A stretch of DNA of 64,000 bases from Tolypeutes matacus. Lineage: Eukaryota > Chordata > Mammalia > Cingulata > Chlamyphoridae. The notes under the pieces are model-generated. The model had not been told where the DNA came from, searched no databases, and saw nothing but the letters and a program-made list of their open reading frames with translations. This document shows, one piece after another, positions 9,182 through 55,372 of the stretch; position 1 is the stretch's first letter, and each line of letters starts with the position of its first letter. The stretch is taken from assembly GCA_026826555.1 (NCBI GenBank), contig JAKSZT010054569.1, forward strand, positions 466,852-530,851, read 5' to 3'. The position numbers were made by a program, and so were the translations under genes.

Positions 9182-9575
9182 TGTTAGGTCCCAGGTTGAT
9201 AAGGCTCAGAGACAGACCAAGATTCAGGCAGGAGTTTATTAGACCGCCAGCATGGCAGGGGTTTGAAGAGAAACCTCAGCCCACCTGCATGGCAGGGGTC
9301 TGAAGAGAGACTTCAGCCCATCTGACTGAGCTGGGAAGTACCTTTTGAACTGGCAGAGTTGGGTGGGGATGGAGAGGGGTGTGAAGATATGAGGTGGAAA
9401 AGCACCATGCTTGCTGTTCTCAGGGAGGGAAGCGACTTTCTGAGGACTGCCTTATTGTTGGGGAAGAGAACGTTCTATGGTTCGGCAGGGGCATGAAAAG
9501 AGAAGGGGCTGGAATGGAGTATTCTGCATTTGGACACATAGCTTGAGCTCAGGGTCAGTAAATTACACTCTAACA
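9182..9575 (-). repeat. 5' LTR of the ERV, with internal tandem duplication
   Basis: 394 bp, TGTTAG...TAACA. It contains AATAAA followed by the shared 3' LTR sequence. A 37-bp block (9,251-9,287) is repeated at 9,288-9,324; this accounts for nearly all of its excess length over the 358-bp partner LTR. Confidence 0.85.
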
Positions 9576-9760: not shown

Positions 9761-10939
9761 TTTTATTTTTTTTAATTCTTATTCTTTCCTCTATTTCCAC
9801 TACATTTTTACTTGACTTTCCCTTGCTCCCCATCTGAGATTTTAGCTTTCCATTTGCACTAAAGGAATCTCTGCCTCAAATCTCGAGCAGATTCCATTCC
9901 AATTAGAGCAACAACATTCCCCAAAGGACACACAAATCTCAGAAAGCTATTTCCCAGCACTAAAGAATTTATAAGGCAAAATTAATCACATACACTAACT
10001 TACAATGAAAAAGTGCTCGCTTCTGAGTCATAACACTTGGCTTGCATTTCTATGAGAAAATGCAAAAAAAAAAAAAACACTGCAGTTCAGTGGCTGAGAC
10101 CTTCTTCCTCAAAATTCATTGCAAAATCTGGAGGGACAGTTAGCTGCATTCATGCTATCATCACCTTGCTTTGCACTTAGATGGCTTTCTGAACTTCCTT
10201 AACTAATTATTCCCACAAGAGTTATACCCCTAGGATTTCAACATTGTACTGATCCAGATGTTTGGTAGTTCTAGGAAAGAACAATTGAACACAGTTCTCA
10301 CTAAGAAGAGATGACAATAACTCTGATTTCAAAACAGGATTCTATAATACTAGGAATAGAGTAAAATTGTCAATTAAAAAATATGTTTGCCTTCAAAGGA
10401 GTGCAAACTATGATAAAAAGTAAATAGCATTGCATTGGCTATAAAATCGGTTAGGATTAAAACAATGCTAATGTGAGTGTGGATGTGAAGCCTCAGAAAT
10501 TATCTCCAGCTGTTTTAAGCAGAAAATATATATAAGAAGGGGATATTAGGGAGCTGAAGGACTCAGCCTGAGGACTAGAGAACCAGGCCGAGTGGCTGTG
10601 CCATCAGGACTTCCAGCCCATATCTTAATGCAGCAGAACTGATGAATGCAAAACACTTGTCTCATTCCCATCCCTGTTCAGCTGAAACTGCTGACACCTT
10701 TGGGACTGGACCACCTTGAACCAGTAGCAGTTCCTACGATATGGCTTTCTGAGGAACTCAACCTTATTGCAATATCCTTTATCACCAAAGAGAATCTCCA
10801 TATTCCCTGCCTCTTTCTATTACAAACTCTTGATTTTAAGTTCCGGGAGGATGTAACTGAAAGACAGAGCCTTGGCCATGGCTCTGTCATAGCTGCAAAA
10901 GACGCTGGGAAGAGTATATCATATATATAAATCCTATTT
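9761..10939. other. Unassigned intergenic sequence
   Basis: No gene or clear repeat family was recognised. A 94-codon open frame at 10,646-10,930 has no recognisable domain and is not called as a gene. Confidence 0.5.
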
Positions 10940-11420
10940 AAAAATTTTTTTAAAAGATTCTTAGATTAAATAAATGTTACATAAAATGTAGGGGATTCCC
11001 ATATGCCCCATTCCCTATGCCTCCCACACTTTCCCACACGAACAACGTCCTTCATTGGTGTTGTACATTTGTTACAATTGATGAACACATATTGGAGCAT
11101 TGCCACTCAGTGTGGGCTTTAGTTTACATTATAGTTTAAATTCTCTCCCGCACAATTTTATAAGTTACGACAAGATATATAATGGCCTGTATCTTTCATT
11201 GCAACGTTATTCAGGACAATTCCAATTTTTCGAAAGTGCCCCCATAATACACCTATTTTTCTCTCTCCCTCCCCTCACAACCACCCTTGGTAACTGCCAG
11301 CACATCAATGCTAAAAGTTCTTCCCTTGCTAGAATAACAATAAGTCTATAGTAGAATAACAGTAAGTCTACCCTAGTCCATCGTTCATTCCCCAATATTT
11401 TTAGTTCCTCCAGTAATAAG
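10940..11420 (-). mobile_element. L1 3'-UTR fragment
   Basis: The reverse complement matches the copies at 745-1,043 and 53,560-53,960 (gtaacatttatttaatctaa, gtgttcatcaattgtaacaa). The T/A-rich tail is at the left end. A short local duplication of agtagaataacaataagtct lies near 11,330-11,370. Confidence 0.7.
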
Positions 11421-12019
11421 GGAGCTCTATCTCCATCACTACTTCCAATGTAGGAATCTTCATTCTCTAATGAAAATGAGAAATATCTACATAGGGACAC
11501 TTTCAGGCATTACTGATGGGAATTAAATTTCATATAAACTTTCTAGAGAAAAAATTGGCAATGTTTAGTAAAAAGCTTGAAAACTTTTTAAAGCAGCCAC
11601 ACAAAATATAAAATACTATCCAAAGGAAATAAGTAGATCTAGCGGCCCTGGAGATGGGCCACTGAGATCCCCATTCAGGTTAGAAGGTCTTATTCTCTTT
11701 TTTTTTTTCTTTTTCTTTTTTTTTTTTTTTTTTTGTTTGCTGGCAATGCTGCCGACAGAAAGCATCCAGTCTTCCTTGGAAAATGCTTCCACTGAGTAAT
11801 GTCCTTTTGCTCACAGTCATACCACACCCCTGTTCCGAGCAGCCTGCTTACCTGGGACTGGATGACATGAGCAAACAAAGTCTCAGCCCCTTGTCCCCAG
11901 CCTGATACCATCTGATGGCCCACACCAGGTTCAGAGCTGGAGTGGGGCCACCTAAGGCCTTTATTGTGCAGCATCCCAGACCAACTTCTCCCTCTGCCCA
12001 ATCCTGCTTCCATCCATTC
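11421..12019. other. Unassigned intergenic sequence with a T-rich tract
   Basis: A T-rich tract at 11,697-11,735 suggests the tail of a minus-strand retroposon. No gene was recognised. Confidence 0.4.
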
Positions 12020-12027
12020 CATCACAC

Positions 12028-12383
12028 CAGGGGTTCTTAGCCAGGGGCCTGCAGACACCCAAGGGGTCTGGGGAAAGATTCCAGGGGGTCCATGAGCTTG
12101 AATTGAAAAACATTAATTTATTATCTTTATTTTCTCTGACCTCTAACTGAAATCTAACACTTCCTTTACTTATGAATGCATGCATTAAATTACAGTAGTA
12201 TTCATTTCATATCACATTACAGTTGCATATCTTGAAAAATCGCTTATGCTCATTCATACTTTGTTAGACCCGACACTAGTTGAGTGTCATAAAACTATCT
12301 GCCGATACATTCTGAGATGGGGTCTGTGGTTTTCACCTGACTGCCAAAGGGGTCCATGGAACAAAAAAGGTTAAGGGCCCCTG
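12028..12383. mobile_element. hAT-type MITE (Charlie-like)
   Basis: 356 bp with terminal inverted repeats caggggttcttagcc and ggttaagggcccctg. An 8-bp target duplication flanks it, catcacac (12,020-12,027) and cattacac (12,384-12,391), with one mismatch. Eight-bp duplications and CAGGGG ends are diagnostic of hAT elements. It is non-coding. Confidence 0.85.
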
Positions 12384-12772
12384 CATTACACAGATATTGG
12401 TCCTGAAAGCTCTCCATAATAAACTTCCTATGCTGAAATCCATCTCAAAATCTACTTCCCCAGGAACCCAAACTGCAAAACAGAGAACAAAAATGACATG
12501 TACATGAGTATTCAATGTTGCTTTATTTTTAGTAATAAAATGTGAAAAAAGCTTACATGTCAAATGATAAAGTATGAATATATTCATAAGGTATTATATA
12601 CAGCCACTAAAATTACCTTCCAGATTTGTGACATTTTTCTAAATAAAATTTGGAGTAATAATAAAATAGTGTGAATACAAATTAATATTCAATTTATATA
12701 CCGAAAATAAAAAGACATAAAGAGAAAGAGTAAATACAAGAGAGCCATATTCCTAAATGTTAATATTAATTA

Positions 12773-12884
12773 GGGGAGCAGGTGTAGCTCAGTGGTTGCG
12801 CGCCTGCTTCGCATTTACAAGGTCCCGGGTTCAATCCCCAGTACCTCCTAAAATTAAATTAAATTAAATTAAAGTTAAAATTAA
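12773..12884 (+). mobile_element. DAS-SINE monomer
   Basis: A tRNA-derived SINE with an A box (tagctcagtgg) and a B box (ggttcaatccc), then cctcctaaa and a (ttaaa)n tail. It is flanked by a perfect 11-bp duplication, aatattaatta (12,762-12,772 and 12,885-12,895). The tRNA-like head lacks a mature 3' end, so it is not a tRNA gene. Confidence 0.9.
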
Positions 12885-13127
12885 AATATTAATTATATAT
12901 GCAGATGTGGGGTTATCTTAGCTTTCTAAATTTCCTGCAATGAGGTTACAATGTTTTATACAGAACATTAAATAAATGTTATATATTTGTTATTTGTCTA
13001 AACTTTAAAATAATAATTTTGAAAAATTATTTAAAGTAATTTAAATAATTTTTAAAGTAACAACTAGTTTTATCTTTATGTGAATTTTAAATTGAATTGA
13101 CATAATCATATAATATTAAAATAGCAT

Positions 13128-13263
13128 GGGAAGCGGCTGTGGCTCAATCAGTAGGGCTCCCGTTTACCATATGGGAGGCCCCGCCCACCCGGCGCGGTTA
13201 GCTGACCCAGCGAGCACAAGCAGCAAGGGGGGGATAAATGAATAAATTAAAAAAAAAAAAAAA
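13128..13263 (+). mobile_element. DAS-SINE, variant
   Basis: A head with tggctcaatcagtagggctc and ccatatgggaggccccgccc, a body with the gagcacaagcagcaaggggg block and a long A tail. It belongs to the same tRNA-derived family, a different subfamily from the copy 350 bp upstream. Confidence 0.85.
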
Positions 13264-13953
13264 GGCAGATGTATACCAAAGAGTTTGAAATCAACAAAAG
13301 TCCTGAGTGAGAAAGAGTTAAATTTTAACAATGAGATGCCTTCGCAATAAATTACACATAATAATTTTCACTTTCTTAAGGCTTTAGTTTTCATAACAAT
13401 ATTAATTACTTAGCATAATAGTAATAGAATCCTATTATTGTATTAATGCTTAGCATTGTAGCCGACCACCCAGAGACACTAAGGAGAATCTAAAGTTGTC
13501 ATTGGCAAGGAAGTTCTTCCTCTGGAAGAAGCAGAAAAGACTAGACTGAATTCGTCCAGTGGAAGAGACTAGACTGAATTGAAGAGCAGATGTACCAAGA
13601 TGTAGATTCTTTTGGTAGAGAGGCTTTCCCCAAAGAGTCTGACCTTCCCTGGTGAGATGGATCTCAGTGTAATCAACAACCCGTGCTCTCCTTTCTAGGC
13701 TCAGCCAGAACACTTTTGCCATAGAGAAAAAAAGAGTCTGAGCAGAGAAGAACATGCAAGATTTGCTTCTGGCCAAACTATTTCTCTATTATATTCAGAG
13801 TGCTAGTGTCCTAAAGCTTTTTTTTTTTTTTTTGGTACTGTGGGTTGAACCCCGGACCTCGTATGTGGGAAGCCGGCACTCAACCACTGAGCCACATCAG
13901 TTTCCCTGAGTTGACTTTATTATTTGTTTTGCTTGTTGTTAGTTGTTTTTTTT

Positions 13954-14910
13954 AATGGTATAAATTTATTTATTTTTTAATATATTTTTATTGAAGTATA
14001 TCATTCAAACATGACATGCATAAACAATAAGTGTATAGTAAAGATTGTGAACTTACAAAATAAACATACATAACATCATACGGGGGTCTCATACATCACC
14101 CCTCCACCAACACTTTGCACTGTTGTGAAACATTTGTTACAAACTATGCAAGAGCATCATCAAAATATTACTACCTAACTATAGTCCCTATCTTACATTT
14201 GGTGTATTTTTCCCCAAACCCACCCTAATTTTTAAAGGTATGTTTTATTATAGAGGTTGTTAGCTGGCAAAACAATCAAGCACATATGTAGAATTCCCAT
14301 ACAACACCCCTTCACCAACATAACCACACTGTGCTAGAATATTTGTTACAGATTATGGGATAATATCATCGGACTATTACCACCAACCATGGCCATAGCA
14401 TACATTTGCACACTTTTTCCACACACCTCCATTATCAACACAGTACATCTTTGGCATTGATGCAAGAATATTAGAGTATTGCTGTTAACCACAGTCTATA
14501 GGTCACACCAACTGTAGTTTCCCCATGCTTCTCCACATTCCCACCACCCTGCAATAGTGATGTACATCTGCTCTAGCTCACAGAAGAACACTCTTGCTTT
14601 TGTACCCTCAACCACAATTCTCATCCACCTCTGGGTTCACTGTGTTATTCAGTCCCTAGATTATTCTTTAGCTTTCTTTCAGTTGACATTTACGTCCTCA
14701 GACTACCCCTTTTCAGCCACATTCCATTTATAAACCAGTTGCTACTCACTATAAAGTGTGACCATTAACTCCATCCATTTCCACACTTTTACAGTCAAGT
14801 TAAAGTTTCTACATACATTAAGCATCAGTAGTTCTTCTCAACACCCCTCTTATCTCCTAATAACCTATACTCTGAGTTTTAGCTCCATGTGTTTATTCTT
14901 CATATTTGGT
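13954..14910 (-). repeat. L1 3' UTR with internal repeats
   Basis: About 950 bp after the ORF2 stop. Two blocks resemble each other: about 13,978-14,220 and 14,228-14,480. Both run from a tttattg-aagtat / ggtatgttttatta start through caccccttcaccaacat and atttgttaca to tttttccacacac-type ends. This suggests an old duplication inside the 3' UTR. Confidence 0.5.
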
Positions 14911-19365
<4,455 letters not shown>

Positions 19366-22385: not shown

Positions 22386-23817
22386 ATGTAAGCTCAAAAG
22401 ATGGATTCTAACAGCAAAGATATAAAATGTAAGGATGCTATGGATCAGGGCAGAACTTCTATAACACTAGGGTGAGCCAACTGGAAAACAGCCAGGTAAC
22501 ACCTATGAAATAATGTGCTTGAGAAAGAGGGGGCACACAGTACCCAAGTGGCTGAGGAAGGCCAAACTTCTGAAAAGTAGTCCCTGTAGGAAGCAATTAT
22601 AATATTTGAACAGAATTTACTTTGATATTTTAATTTAACCAATGAAATTCTAGAAATAAACAACAAAACAGTCAAGAAGCAAGCCTTTATAAAATTAAAA
22701 TGAAATAAGAAAGAAGAATATGTTATTAAGAAAATATGAGAAATAATTAAGAAATGTCTTAAAATTAGTAAAAAGCAGAACACAAAATAAAGAATTTATA
22801 AGACAAACTTGAGAAATTTTCCAAAAATGCCAAGGAAAAGATAAAGAAATAAAAATGAGTGAGACCATGATGAGAAGACTGGCTATCATAGATCTTACAC
22901 AGATAATTAGTGCTCCTAAAGAAGAACAAATGAAGGAAAATATATTGGAGATGTATTGGAGAGGGGAGAAAAGTTTTGAGATGATTAAAGACCTATTAAA
23001 TATAGTGGTTAATTCTATCTAAAACTATTTGGAGTATTTGAAGTATGTGATCCTTCCCTCCTTGCGTGTCATCTATTACTACATAACATAGCAGCTTAAA
23101 AGAATACACAGATATTATCTCACATTTTGTGTGGGTGTGGAATCTCGGAAAATCTTATCTGGGGCCTCTGCTTTGGGGTCTCTTACTAGGCTGCAGTAAA
23201 GATTTATCTGGAATAGGATCTGCTTCCAAGCTCATTCAGAGATTGTTTCAGAATTCAGTTCCTCCGTGTTTGTCGGACTGAGGGCCTTGCTGGCTGTTGA
23301 CTAAAGGATGCCCTCAGTTTCTTACCATGTGGGTATCATTATTACCAACTTGAATAGACATAGAGTCACCCTTTGTATATTCTCTGATTGAAACTGACTA
23401 AAAATTGTTTTCTTTTACAAGCATGCTTCATTATTTTGTACAAATTTAAACATATCCCCAAAATTCAGGGAAAAAAAGTAACTTGGTGAGGTGCTAAGGA
23501 GTATTTAGGGAAACTCTACGGTATCTCTGTCATAGAGTACCTAGTTAACACCATCATTTAATCTGTTACAAAATGTAGAGAGAGTGAAAATAACTAATGA
23601 TAAAAATGGGCTCTGTACCATACCTAAAGTAGTTAAATATCAAATCAGTGAAATTTCCTTAAGGTTAGTGTGTCAGCCATTCTTCTCCAGAAATACAGAT
23701 ATACACACAGATATGCACAAACACACACGCAAAGAGATTCAATTTATGGAATTGGGTCATGTAATTGTAGGGGCTAACAAGCCATCTGAAATCTGTAGGG
23801 CAGGATTGATCCTAAAG
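22386..23817. other. Intergenic sequence, no gene seen
   Basis: AT-rich. Around 23,050-23,340 there is a block (tctattactacataacatag, agcagcttaaaagaatacac) resembling ancient MER/LTR-type repeats, but I cannot name the family. Confidence 0.4.
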
Positions 23818-23819
23818 AC

Positions 23820-23885
23820 TTTTTTTTTTTTTTTAAAGGAGGCACCAGGGCTTGAATCCAGGACCTTGTACATGGGAAGCATGGT
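23820..23885 (-). mobile_element. DAS-SINE fragment
   Basis: A T tract followed by aaaggaggcaccagggcttg and aatccaggaccttgtacatg, the antisense tRNA-like head of the same SINE family, truncated. Confidence 0.75.
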
Positions 23886-23925
23886 TTAAGATTTCCATCC
23901 TACAAATATTAAAAAGAATGAGTTG

Positions 23926-26072
23926 TATACATCACGACCAAGTTGGATTTATTCCTGGTATGCAAGGCTGGTTCAACATAAGAAAATCAATCAATGTAAT
24001 ACACCACATTAACAAGTTGAAGGAAAAAAACCACATGATCATCTCAATAGATGCAGAAAAGGCATTCGACAAAATCCAACATCCTTTTTTGATAAAAATA
24101 CTTCAAAAGATAGGAATAAAAGGAAAATTCCTCAATATGATAAAAGGCATATATTAAAAACCCACAGCCAACATCATACTCAATGGGGAAAGGTTGAAAG
24201 CTTTCCCCCTAAGATCAGGAACAAGACAAGGATGCCCACTGTCACCATTGTTATTCAACATTGTACTAGAAGTTCTAGCTAGGGCAATTAGACAAGACAA
24301 AAAAATTAAAGGCGTCCAAATAGGAAAAGAGGAAGTAAAACTCTCACTGTTTGCAGATGACATGATCCTGTATTTAGAAAATCCTGAAGTATCCACAACA
24401 AAGCTACTTGAACTAATAAATGAGTTCAGCAAAGTGGCAGGATATAAGATCAACACACAAAAATCAGTAATGTTTTTGTACACCAGTACTGAACAATCCA
24501 AGGAGGAAATCAGGAGGAAAATTCCATTTTCAATAGCAACAAAAAGACTCAAATACCTAGGAGTTAATTTAACCAAGGAAGTACAGGACCTATATGCAGA
24601 AAACTACAAAACAATGCTAAAAGAAATTTAAAAAGACCTAAACAAATGGAAAGACATTCCGTGTTCATGGATTAGAAGAATAAATATCATGAAGATGTCA
24701 ATCTTGCCCAAACTGATTTATAGATTCAATGCAATACCAATCAAAATCCCAACAGCTTACTTTACAGAATTAGAGAAGGCAATTACCAAATTCATCTGGA
24801 AGGGTAAGTGCACCCGAATAGCCAAAAGTATTCTAAAAAAGAAGAGCAATGTGGGAGGAATTTCGCTGCCTGACCTTGAAACATATTACAAAGCTACAGT
24901 GGTCAAAACAGCATGGTACTGGCATAAAGATAGAAACATCGATCAGTGGAATAGAATTGAGAATCCAGAAATAAACCCTCACCTATACAGTCAACTGGTT
25001 TTTGACAAACCTACCAAGCCGACGCTGATGGGAAAAAACAGTCTCTTCAACAAATGGTGTTGGAAGAACTGGATATCTATAACCAAAAGAATGAAAGAGG
25101 ACCCCTATCTCACCCCCTATACAAGAATCAACTCAAAATGGATCAAAGATCTAAATATAAAAGCCAGGACTATAAAACTACTGGAAGAAAATGTAGGGAA
25201 ACATCTTCAAGACCTTGTAGTAGGTGGTGGTTTCTTGGACCTCACACCCAAAGCACGTGCAACAAAAGAAAAATTAGATAAATGGGACCTCCTCAAAATT
25301 AAACACTTTTGCACCTCACAGGAATTTGTCAGAAGGGTGAAAAGGCAGCCGACTCAATGGGAAAAAACATTTGGAAATCACATATCTGATAAGGGTTTAA
25401 TATCCAGGATATATAAAGAGATGTTACAACTCAACAATAAAAAGACAAATGACCCAATTAAAAAATGGGCCAAAGACTTGAATAGACATTTCTCCGAAGA
25501 AGAAATACAAATGGCAAAAAAAACACATGAAGAAATGCTCAACATCACTCATGATTAGGGAAATGCAAATCAAAACTACAATGAGATATCATTTCACACC
25601 TATCAGAATGGCCACTATGAAAAAGACAGAGAAATACAAGTGTTGGAGAGGATGTGGAGAGATAGGTACACTTCTTCACTGTTGGTGGGAATGCAGGATG
25701 GTACAACCACTATGGAGGACTGTTTGGCAGTTCCTAAAGAAGATGAATATAGACTTGCCATGTGACCCTGCAATACCACTACTGGGTATATACCCAGAAG
25801 AACTGAGAGCAGTGACACTAACAGACATCTGCACACTGATGTTCATAGCAACATTATTCACCATTGCCAAAAGCTGGAAACAACCCAGGTGTCCATCAAC
25901 AGATGAATGGATAAACAAACTGTGGTCTATTCACACGATGGAATATTATGCAGCTGTAAGAAGAAATGAAGTCATAAAGCATATGGCAACATGGATGAAC
26001 CTGGAGGACATTATGTTGAGTGAAGCAAGCCAGACACAAAAGGACAAATACTGTATGAATGCATTACTATGA
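23926..26072 (+). pseudogene. L1 ORF2 C-terminal part, lightly damaged
   Basis: Reverse transcriptase from the [20 protein letters not shown] region, with [24 protein letters not shown] and the intact catalytic box FADDMILYL (24,350-24,380). The C-terminal segment follows, ending [10 protein letters not shown] at 26,072. Only two stops (near 24,155 and 24,629) and one frameshift (near 25,540) are evident, so the copy is younger than the L1 at 13,954. The endonuclease and ORF1 are absent through 5' truncation. Confidence 0.9.
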
Positions 26073-26372
26073 ACCAAATATATTGTGTAATATATTGTTT
26101 GATTCACACACAAAAAAAAACAAAAAAAAAAACAAAAAACAAAACAACAACAAAAAAATTTACATGTATCCATTACATTTAATTGAGAAATGTATATATT
26201 TATTCATCTGTATTTACTTTTCAGTTTTTAATTGCTTATGTTTTCAATTATTAAATGTACAAAATAAAGTTAAAAAACAAAAACAAAACAAAACAAACAA
26301 AAAAAAACGAACAAGCAAAATGAACGGAAAAAAAAACAAAAAAAAGTTAAAACAGAAAAAAAAAAAAAAAAA
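26073..26372 (+). other. L1 3' UTR and first A-rich tail
   Basis: AT-rich 3' UTR with AATAAA in tgtacaaaataaagttaaaa (about 26,260), then about 100 nt of interrupted A tract. This is the L1's own weak polyadenylation region, apparently read through in the parent element. The lysine-rich frame across it is a translated A tail. Confidence 0.7.
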
Positions 26373-27433
26373 GAAATCCACAAAATACTAAATTCAATTG
26401 GCTACAAAGGTAAAAAGCAAAAGTTTGCATTAGTAATGAAAGAAATGCATACTAGGCAATAATGAGTTATCATCTGTTGCCATCAAATTTATTATTTAAA
26501 AAGAAAAAAAAAGATTATAATACCCAGGACTGGTAAGAATACAGGCCCCTCATACACTGCCATGGGAGCAATGCCTCAACTAAAAATTTATCCAGGGAGA
26601 TGATTAAAGATGTGGGCAAAGACTTGTGTGCAAGTTGCCTCTTGAGGGGTTACCTGGAATTGGGAGAAGATGGGGACAAAGGACATTCTGGACAGAGAAA
26701 ATACAACCGAAAGCATGGCCAGCCCACCCAAGGCCACTGTGATGCCCTTTACACATTGTGGAAAAAGCTGCCAGCAACAGCACAGGGGTATTTATGGCTT
26801 CTGCTGCCCTTTCCTTGGCCTCTGACTCTGGTCTGGGATCAGATATAGGCTAAAATGTAAGACGTCAGTGCAGACCCTTGAGCACGGATGGATTTATAGA
26901 ACTATAGCTTAAAATTGCTGTGACATTCAGGACTTAGAAGATTGCTCTACCGACATGAAATAATTTCCACAAGAAAGAGAAGGGCTCTGCCCCCCTCCAC
27001 CCTCCCCTCTTCCTCTAATTTGTACTTCAATGATTTGATACCACTATTGGATGAACTAACACAACCCCCTCTTCCCCCAGCAGAGAAGGATGGCAAAGGC
27101 GTGAGTAGGGACCACAGCATAGACTTAGAGGATAACAGCCAAGGATTGCCTGGCTCCTACTCCCTTCCTTGTCCATCTCATGTCACCCACCAGGCCACAG
27201 ACTGAAGGTACACTCTGAGTGGCCCTCTGCCTACCCATGGCCTCCCTTATAGGGCACCCCTGGCCCCAGCATGCCAAGGGGAGCCCAACAGGAAGGTCAG
27301 GATGGTATCTCATAAAGGGACCTCAGAGGGTGCCAAGCAGGTACTACCTGCAGCAGTGAGATATGGGGTAAATTATTTAACTTCTCCCTGGCCAGTCTGC
27401 AAAACAAGGATAATAAAGAATCCTAGAAACTGC
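26373..27433 (+). other. Candidate transduced segment of unknown origin
   Basis: About 1,060 bp between the two A tracts. The first 170 bp resemble an old L1 3' end (gcatactaggcaataatgag). The rest, from about 26,590, is GC-richer and unfamiliar. Frames at 26,600-26,848 and 26,942-27,205 show no domain. It ends with a poly(A) signal. Its source would be the genomic flank of a parent L1 elsewhere. Confidence 0.55.
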
Positions 27434-28135
27434 AAAAAAAAAAAAAGAATGAGTTGAATCTATCACTGGGAATACAGCAATTAAAACAAACATACAAACA
27501 AACAAACACAGAAGAGGCTTATTGATTGGTCATAAATAGATTACGGTCTTATAGGAACTAGGAATGTATTTCTGGGTCAGGGCAGAGTTTTCTGGAACCT
27601 CACACTTCAGATTAAACTATAGTTTTGATGTGCTTTTGAGAAAACTCACACATGGAAAGAGAGTCTCCTACAATGGTGGAGGGTATGATTTGATAAGTGG
27701 ACTCTGGGTTGGAAGGGGCCTGAGCATCCTTTTCGAGGCCAGAGTGAGCTTATCTTGAACCTTACACTGCAAGGGCAGATGAACTTCTTATGGGAAAAAT
27801 CCCCCATGGAAGGAAAGGCCTGTAGGGGTCAGATAAGCGATGGAAATGTGTGAAGCACATTTAGCTGTGATGATAAAGTGGAAAACACGTGCCCTGATAA
27901 TGGGAGCAGCTTCTTTATCAGTTAGGACGACATCTGTGGCAAGTAAGAGAAAACTCAACTCAAAATGGCTTAAACAATATGGAAAATTTATTGATCACAT
28001 AACAAGAAACTTAAACAAAGTTTGGGGTGATTCCAGTGCTCATTAATCCAGCAATTCGCTGATGTTATAAAAGGACCATGTTTTAGTCTTTTCATCTTTC
28101 TGCTCTAATTAGTATATTCACCTTGCCTTCATAAT

Positions 28136-37216: not shown

Positions 37217-37599
37217 GGGAAGTGGATGTGGCTTAAGCAGTTGGGCGCCTGCCTACCATATGGAAGGTCCTGGGTTCTGTTCCTGGTGCCTCCTAAAGAA
37301 AACAAGCAAGACAGTGAGCTGACATGATGGGCTGGAGTGGCAAGCTGACACAACAAGATGATGCAACGAAGAGACACAACGAGAAAACACAGTGAGAAAT
37401 ACAACAAGCAGTAAGTGGAGGTGGCTCTAGCCAGTCGGTACCTCCCTCCCACATGGGAGGTCCCAGGTTTGGTTCCGGGTGCCTCCTAAAAAGAAAATGA
37501 GCACTCAAATAATGGACACAGAGAGCAGACAGCAAGAGCAAACAATGATGGGGCAGAAGGGAGAAATAAATAAAATAAATCTTAAAAAAAAAAAAAAAA
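37217..37599 (+). mobile_element. Dimeric DAS-SINE
   Basis: Two tRNA-like heads: 37,217 on (ggatgtggcttaagcagttg, B-box-like ggttctgttcc) and about 37,417 on (aggtggctctagccagtcgg, B-box-like ggtttggttcc), each followed by cctcctaaa. The linker has acacaacaagatgatgcaac-type repeats. It ends in an A tail. Antisense open frames across it are repeat-derived, not genes. Confidence 0.9.
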
Positions 37600-55129: not shown

Positions 55130-55372
55130 GTTCTTCTCCTGTGTGTCTGCTTCTCTGTGAGAGTCTGTTTTATCAGCCCACTGAGGGGGAAAGGACTCAA
55201 AGCTGAGTCACACTCATGATGTGGTTGAATCAAAGCCCTAATCTTAACATAATTTTATCAGACATCTCAGCTGAATCTAATATAATCAAAAGATTATCAT
55301 GCCCAGAGGAACAGACCAGTTTATAAACATAATCTCTCTTTCTGGAATTCATAAATAATCATAAACTGCTAC
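55130..55372 (-). mobile_element. Fragment of the 638-bp LTR family
   Basis: atcatgcccagaggaacaga, ccagtttataaacataatct and ataaactgctaca match the right-hand end of the LTR at 16,075-16,712. Confidence 0.6.

Follow-up and report, generated by a model that had tools for sequence, protein, structure and literature searches.

Introduction

L1 3' transductions relocate non-L1 DNA within genomes and mark the element from which an L1 copy descends. The closest described systems are the partnered transductions of human L1HS and dog L1_Cf, which consist of an L1 3' end, an inner tail, a stretch of flank, an AATAAA signal and an outer tail, with one duplication around all of these parts (PMC4862182, PMC13009371, PMC12458276). 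In a human nanopore set, a poly(A) signal was found 10-30 nt upstream at 274 of 349 transduction ends, and two tails were present in 72% of partnered transductions, a figure for which the paper's own counts, 217 and 215/297, disagree (PMC13009371). In human short-read data whose maximum was limited, the transduced length in high-confidence L1 events had a median of 63 and a range of 8-997 (PMC9311842). In the dog, about 1.8% of L1 insertions carried a mappable transduction, and the hallmarks given in that study were an endonuclease site, a poly(A), a duplication and, for some copies, a 3' transduction (PMC12458276). L1 chimeric insertions (U6/L1, Alu/L1 and mRNA/L1; Law and Burns 2026, PMC13174262) are a further related class, in which two sequences share one L1-type insertion and one duplication. 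Among the papers listed by literature searches, none reported L1 3' transduction in xenarthrans by its title or the start of its abstract, which is no proof of absence.

Here we describe a locus in a 64-kb stretch of DNA (the window, by which we mean the whole stretch that was analysed) that is probably, and in our view with good confidence, a single-event partnered L1 3' transduction, as judged from its sequence. It has the arrangement of parts seen in L1HS and L1_Cf transductions. Unlike those cases, it involves a decayed copy of another L1, and there are several A-rich tracts in the 3' end of that copy.

Results

Anatomy of the insertion

The anatomy of the locus is demonstrated (Table 1). 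Read from 5' to 3', it consists of a 15-nt word, a truncated L1, an A-rich tail, 1,061 nt of other DNA, AATAAA, A13 and the 15-nt word again. Without the right repeat, the insertion runs from 23926 to at most 27446, a length of 3,521 nt. The 3' part of an L1 is followed by its own A-tail and then by sequence foreign to that L1.

Table 1. Parts of the insertion (23911-27456), with positions in the window
Feature	Position	Strand	Remarks
Left 15-nt direct repeat (target-site duplication)	23911-23925	+	Starts at an L1-endonuclease-like site, TT/AAAAAG
5'-truncated L1, ORF2 extending from IHHDQV (reverse transcriptase) as far as its C terminus	23926-26072	+	ORF2p PDB matches, Pfam RVT_1, ORFs, stops, identity to older copy
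L1 3' end: short AT-rich stretch, A-rich tract 26108-26158, 117-nt AT-rich piece 26159-26275	26073-26275	+	Putative 3' UTR
Inner A-rich tail, 97 nt, impure, last part A17	26276-26372	+	
Candidate transduced segment, 1,061 nt	26373-27433	+	Single copy in window; composition
Ancient-L1-like stretch, sense	26375-26514	+	Starts right behind inner tail; weaker pieces to about 26678; mixed support
MIR-like stretch, weak	27352-27400	+	Alignment to a MIR consensus
AATAAA poly(A) signal	27412-27417	+	16 nt before outer tail
Outer poly(A) tail, A13	27434-27446	+	Last 5 A common to repeat
Right copy of the 15-nt direct repeat	27442-27456	+	

The direct repeat and the target site

The 15-nt repeat, AAAAAGAATGAGTTG, occurs exactly twice in the 64 kb with both strands counted, and it brackets the L1 and the segment together, standing at the L1 5' truncation point and again after the second poly(A), as the original prediction had placed it. 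When the real right end was set against other windows of 50 nt, taken from both strands at a step of 7 (18,238 in all, overlapping), none of these controls reached 15 nt and the longest match was 13 nt. For the 10-nt core of the repeat without its A's, GAATGAGTTG, a match of at least 10 nt was found in 24 of the 18,238 windows, or about 1 in 760. The duplication of 15 nt lies around L1 and flank, and the inner tail has no repeat comparable to it: where that tail ends, the left junction finds no match better than the 8-nt AAAAAGAA. Since the five A's of the repeat overlap the outer A13, the length of the tail is A8 to A13. This second poly(A) has its signal within the range of 10-30 nt upstream, since the AATAAA lies, just as had been predicted, 16 nt before it. 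The left junction is a typical L1 endonuclease site of the TT/AAAA type, ATT/AAAAAG; in its longer form, AATATT/AAAAAG, it is TTTTT/AATA on the other strand, in agreement with the junction originally proposed. That joining the two outer flanks gives continuous text had also been claimed, and this we did not confirm, as the joined flanks matched no relative spanning the join within the window.

Beyond the 15 nt there is an imperfect similarity that extends to 22 of 25 letters: 23926-23935 and 27457-27466 agree at 7 of 10 letters, with ATCAC ending both sides. Agreement with 23926-23935 at 7 or more letters was seen in 339 of the 63,991 plus-strand 10-mers. To judge from these letters, ATCAC is possibly a microhomology at the 5' junction. 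We rejected a duplication of 25 nt with three changes and kept the length of 15 nt, because IHH, which human ORF2p has too, is encoded by the additional 10 nt. We also rejected the idea that the left repeat is itself L1 sequence: ORF2p aligns there only with a two-residue gap, and the match of GAATGAGTTG at the far end would be left unexplained. The older L1 in the window reads ATTAAAAGAATTATTCATCATGATC where the young copy reads ATTAAAAAGAATGAGTTGTATACATCACGACC, and AAAAGAAT so resembles L1.

The L1 copy

Protein alignment, which makes no use of the repeat, places the start of L1 homology at 23926/23927. The frame entering at 23927 joins human ORF2p (PDB 8c8j, E 5e-35), and further on two pieces align with chain 8uw3_A (human ORF2p, 1,275 residues), one with its residues 795-1091 and the other with 1088-1269. 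The piece at 24158-24628, which was compared with Pfam only, matches RVT_1 (E 9.6e-21). ORF2 is interrupted by two in-frame stops (24155 and 24629), and its frame changes at about 25515-25525, the point at which the 8uw3_A matches meet; the copy is therefore dead. It is 78-80% identical to the older L1 copy within 14902-17672.

Because 26073-26275 has no relative in the window, we infer, rather than observe, that it belongs to the L1 3' UTR. When the L1 3' end past 26081 was sought elsewhere in the window, a low-complexity match was the only result, and a 21-nt word of this end had no occurrence in viral contigs, a collection unlikely to hold such DNA. Inside the 117-nt piece is an AATAAA at 26263, which has about 100 nt of A-rich DNA behind it, without a GT-rich stretch. 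From 26108 to 26372, the L1 3' end is made up of several A-rich tracts parted by non-A words (the 117-nt piece with its AATAAA; CGAACAAGCAAAATGAACGG; GTTAAAACAG), a pattern that looks as if short flanks had been joined stepwise.

The 1,061-nt segment

At 0.458, the GC content of the segment is higher than that of the L1 (0.370) and of either outer flank (0.366 and 0.402). No second copy of it was found in the 64-kb window, and a 30-nt word from its start was absent from prokaryote contigs, a collection unlikely to hold such DNA. Three of its ORFs matched no Pfam family up to E 0.1; scans of the window gave no Rfam match at the gathering threshold and no tRNA. Overall, the segment is more like unremarkable old genomic sequence than like a coding exon.

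Alignments of the segment to L1 and MIR with lax gaps were dropped, sense-strand L1 scores being no better there than those of shuffles, and stricter alignments were used. The first 140 nt of the segment align with the 3' part of ORF2 of the older L1 in the window. With the older L1 as query, the score of 26375-26514 was equalled by 1 of 1000 local dinucleotide shuffles and by 0 of 1000 in a wider region (328 nt). With the younger L1 as query, 26384-26514 lacked significance (its score was reached in 89 of 1000 shuffles), and the best match of the younger L1 to the segment lay in another, non-colinear part of the L1 (2/300 and 14/1000 shuffles). The adjoining stretch at 26521-26700 was equalled by 16/1000 shuffles for the older L1 and by 5/1000 for the younger, the younger match again not being colinear. 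A comparison of L1 with the segment by nhmmer returned non-significant pieces only (E 0.62 to 1.1), and, with the older L1 as query and its LTR-like insert still in place, 5 of 640 other window tiles reached at least the same score. The start of the segment is likely, but not securely, a remnant of an ancient L1.

At the other end of the segment, 27352-27400 was aligned to a MIR consensus; 0 of 2000 local shuffles and 1 of 500 whole-segment shuffles scored as high. The MIR score of 99 was exceeded by 17 of 252 one-kb window tiles, some of them possibly true MIRs. A laxer MIR alignment runs over the AATAAA to 27425 and the strict one does not, the AATAAA lying 12 nt past the strict match. Our guess would be that this signal derives from the GGATAATAA of MIR.

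Discussion

We suggest the following origin for the locus. A source L1 elsewhere would have been transcribed past its own poly(A) signal, copied here as the AATAAA at 26263, into about 1.06 kb of its 3' flank, and the longer RNA would have been terminated at the AATAAA at 27412. An L1 endonuclease nick at TTTTT/AATA on the bottom strand would have been followed by reverse transcription primed on the second poly(A), which would have proceeded through the flank and then backwards through the L1 before halting inside ORF2, leaving the 5' truncation at 23926. Joining of the second strand would then have produced the 15-nt duplication. What we infer from the anatomy is that read-through took place, that the L1 and the segment share their origin, and that there was a source locus. 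It fits this origin that the signal at 26263, given the DNA behind it, may be a weak terminator that was read through, and that the position of the signal before the outer tail agrees with the end of the longer RNA. The weak ancient-L1-like start and the weak MIR-like end of the segment are features that plain genomic flank may have. Its length counts against the transduction, as 1,061 nt is long for one, compared with the human short-read range of 8-997 (PMC9311842), and so does the low share of dog L1 insertions, about 1.8%, with a mappable transduction (PMC12458276).

The original prediction had read the locus as a 3' transduction on the strength of four points, and those hallmarks that can be checked in the window are present. 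The points are nevertheless not independent proof, since the outer repeat, the second tail and the AATAAA would equally be expected if a separate retrocopy were nested within the tail of the L1. Such a history comprises two events. In the first, a truncated L1 would have inserted with its 15-nt repeat directly behind its tail. In the second, L1 proteins would have retrocopied some unrelated, polyadenylated RNA into that tail, in the orientation of the L1; this would have duplicated A(n)GAA and shifted the right repeat of the L1 by 1 kb. An L1 that first ended in A(n)GAATGAGTTG would give an identical outer anatomy, and the foreign sequence, with an AATAAA and a tail of its own, is like that of a processed retrocopy. 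Moreover, A13GAA (16 nt) stands at both edges of the segment, at 26360-26375 and 27434-27449, so the two histories look alike from the sequence of the window. A separate retrocopy with its own target duplication was what the original prediction had named as evidence against itself, and A13GAA at both edges is the duplication expected of one; 13 of the 16 letters, however, are A-tail, and the word recurs three more times in the window, each time on the minus strand. GAA follows 6 of the 34 A9+ runs in the window, both segment-edge runs included, and at least three following letters are common to 34 of 561 pairs of such runs (about 6%, with runs inside one A-rich tract not independent of each other), which makes the edge match weak evidence. 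It still counts against the transduction, being unlikely by chance but not rare.

Should the window be xenarthran, it speaks for this history that 10,360-15,898 retrocopies are reported for the xenarthran genomes of five species (PMC13251070). Even so, this history needs a second insertion in the same orientation into a target of a few dozen bases. Its nick would fall at a T/T step, and the L1 endonuclease prefers T/A over T/T. A segment in which no gene-like content was found, with no Pfam match in three of its ORFs and a weakly ancient-L1-like start, is also unlike most mRNA copies, although a 3' UTR or a lncRNA could look so. We consider the nested retrocopy unlikely, and our confidence in it and in the transduction is a matter of judgement and not a computed posterior. 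A single event could also have joined the L1 RNA to some other RNA, by a template switch from that RNA to the L1 poly(A) tail or by RNA ligation, which would leave one repeat and two tails but no genomic source arrangement. Chimeras with one outer repeat do exist; however, in the class described for them, the foreign RNA lies 5' of the L1 (PMC13174262), whereas the segment here is 3' of it and the L1 retains its own A-tail at the junction, making this origin very improbable. Scarcely credible, and the least probable of all, is the notion that the segment is native DNA of the locus and the repeat a chance match. We found nothing in support of it, none of the 18,238 controls had a match as long, and a pure A13 with an AATAAA 16 nt before it would require a separate explanation.

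The preferred transduction could also have been serial, the source L1 having itself arisen by a transduction. L1 proper would then end at the first A-rich tract (26108-26158); the 117-nt piece at 26159-26275 would stem from an earlier jump and the 1,061-nt segment from the latest, and the locus, if that is true, would be a record of at least two source sites used in succession. We regard this as unlikely. When the 117-nt piece was compared with the 3' UTR of the older L1, 967 of 1000 shuffles scored as high or higher; against the rest of the window its best tile scored 119, and ten shuffled copies scored 102-132. The simpler reading is that the piece is the subfamily's own 3' UTR.

As a partnered transduction, the locus would be one more 1-kb case beyond the human and dog sets. 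If the source were located, the copy would name one formerly active L1 locus. The process itself is well known in human and dog, and the locus is probably one ordinary further case, which changes no general idea.

Neighbouring repeats

Other repeats lie in the same window. The older L1 copy (14902-17672, minus strand) is split by a 638-nt TG...CA insert at 16075-16712, which is directly flanked on both sides by CCTAG and is solo-LTR-like; a partial relative of this insert is present at 55283-55354 (80.5% over 77 nt). Just to the left of the insertion, at 23804-23908, is a short SINE-like element in reverse orientation, in which 23820-23834 is a run of T15. By eye, GATT..ATCCTA is seen on both sides of it and may be its own imperfect duplication. 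Related pieces occur at 12805-12849, 13809-13873 and 37250-37305. The element presumably resembles the DAS-SINEs of armadillos, which we take as a lead only. A third and much older L1 fragment, at 1552-2043 on the minus strand, is 67% identical to the young L1, and a two-copy tandem repeat of 37 nt with 89% matches is located at 9250-9324.
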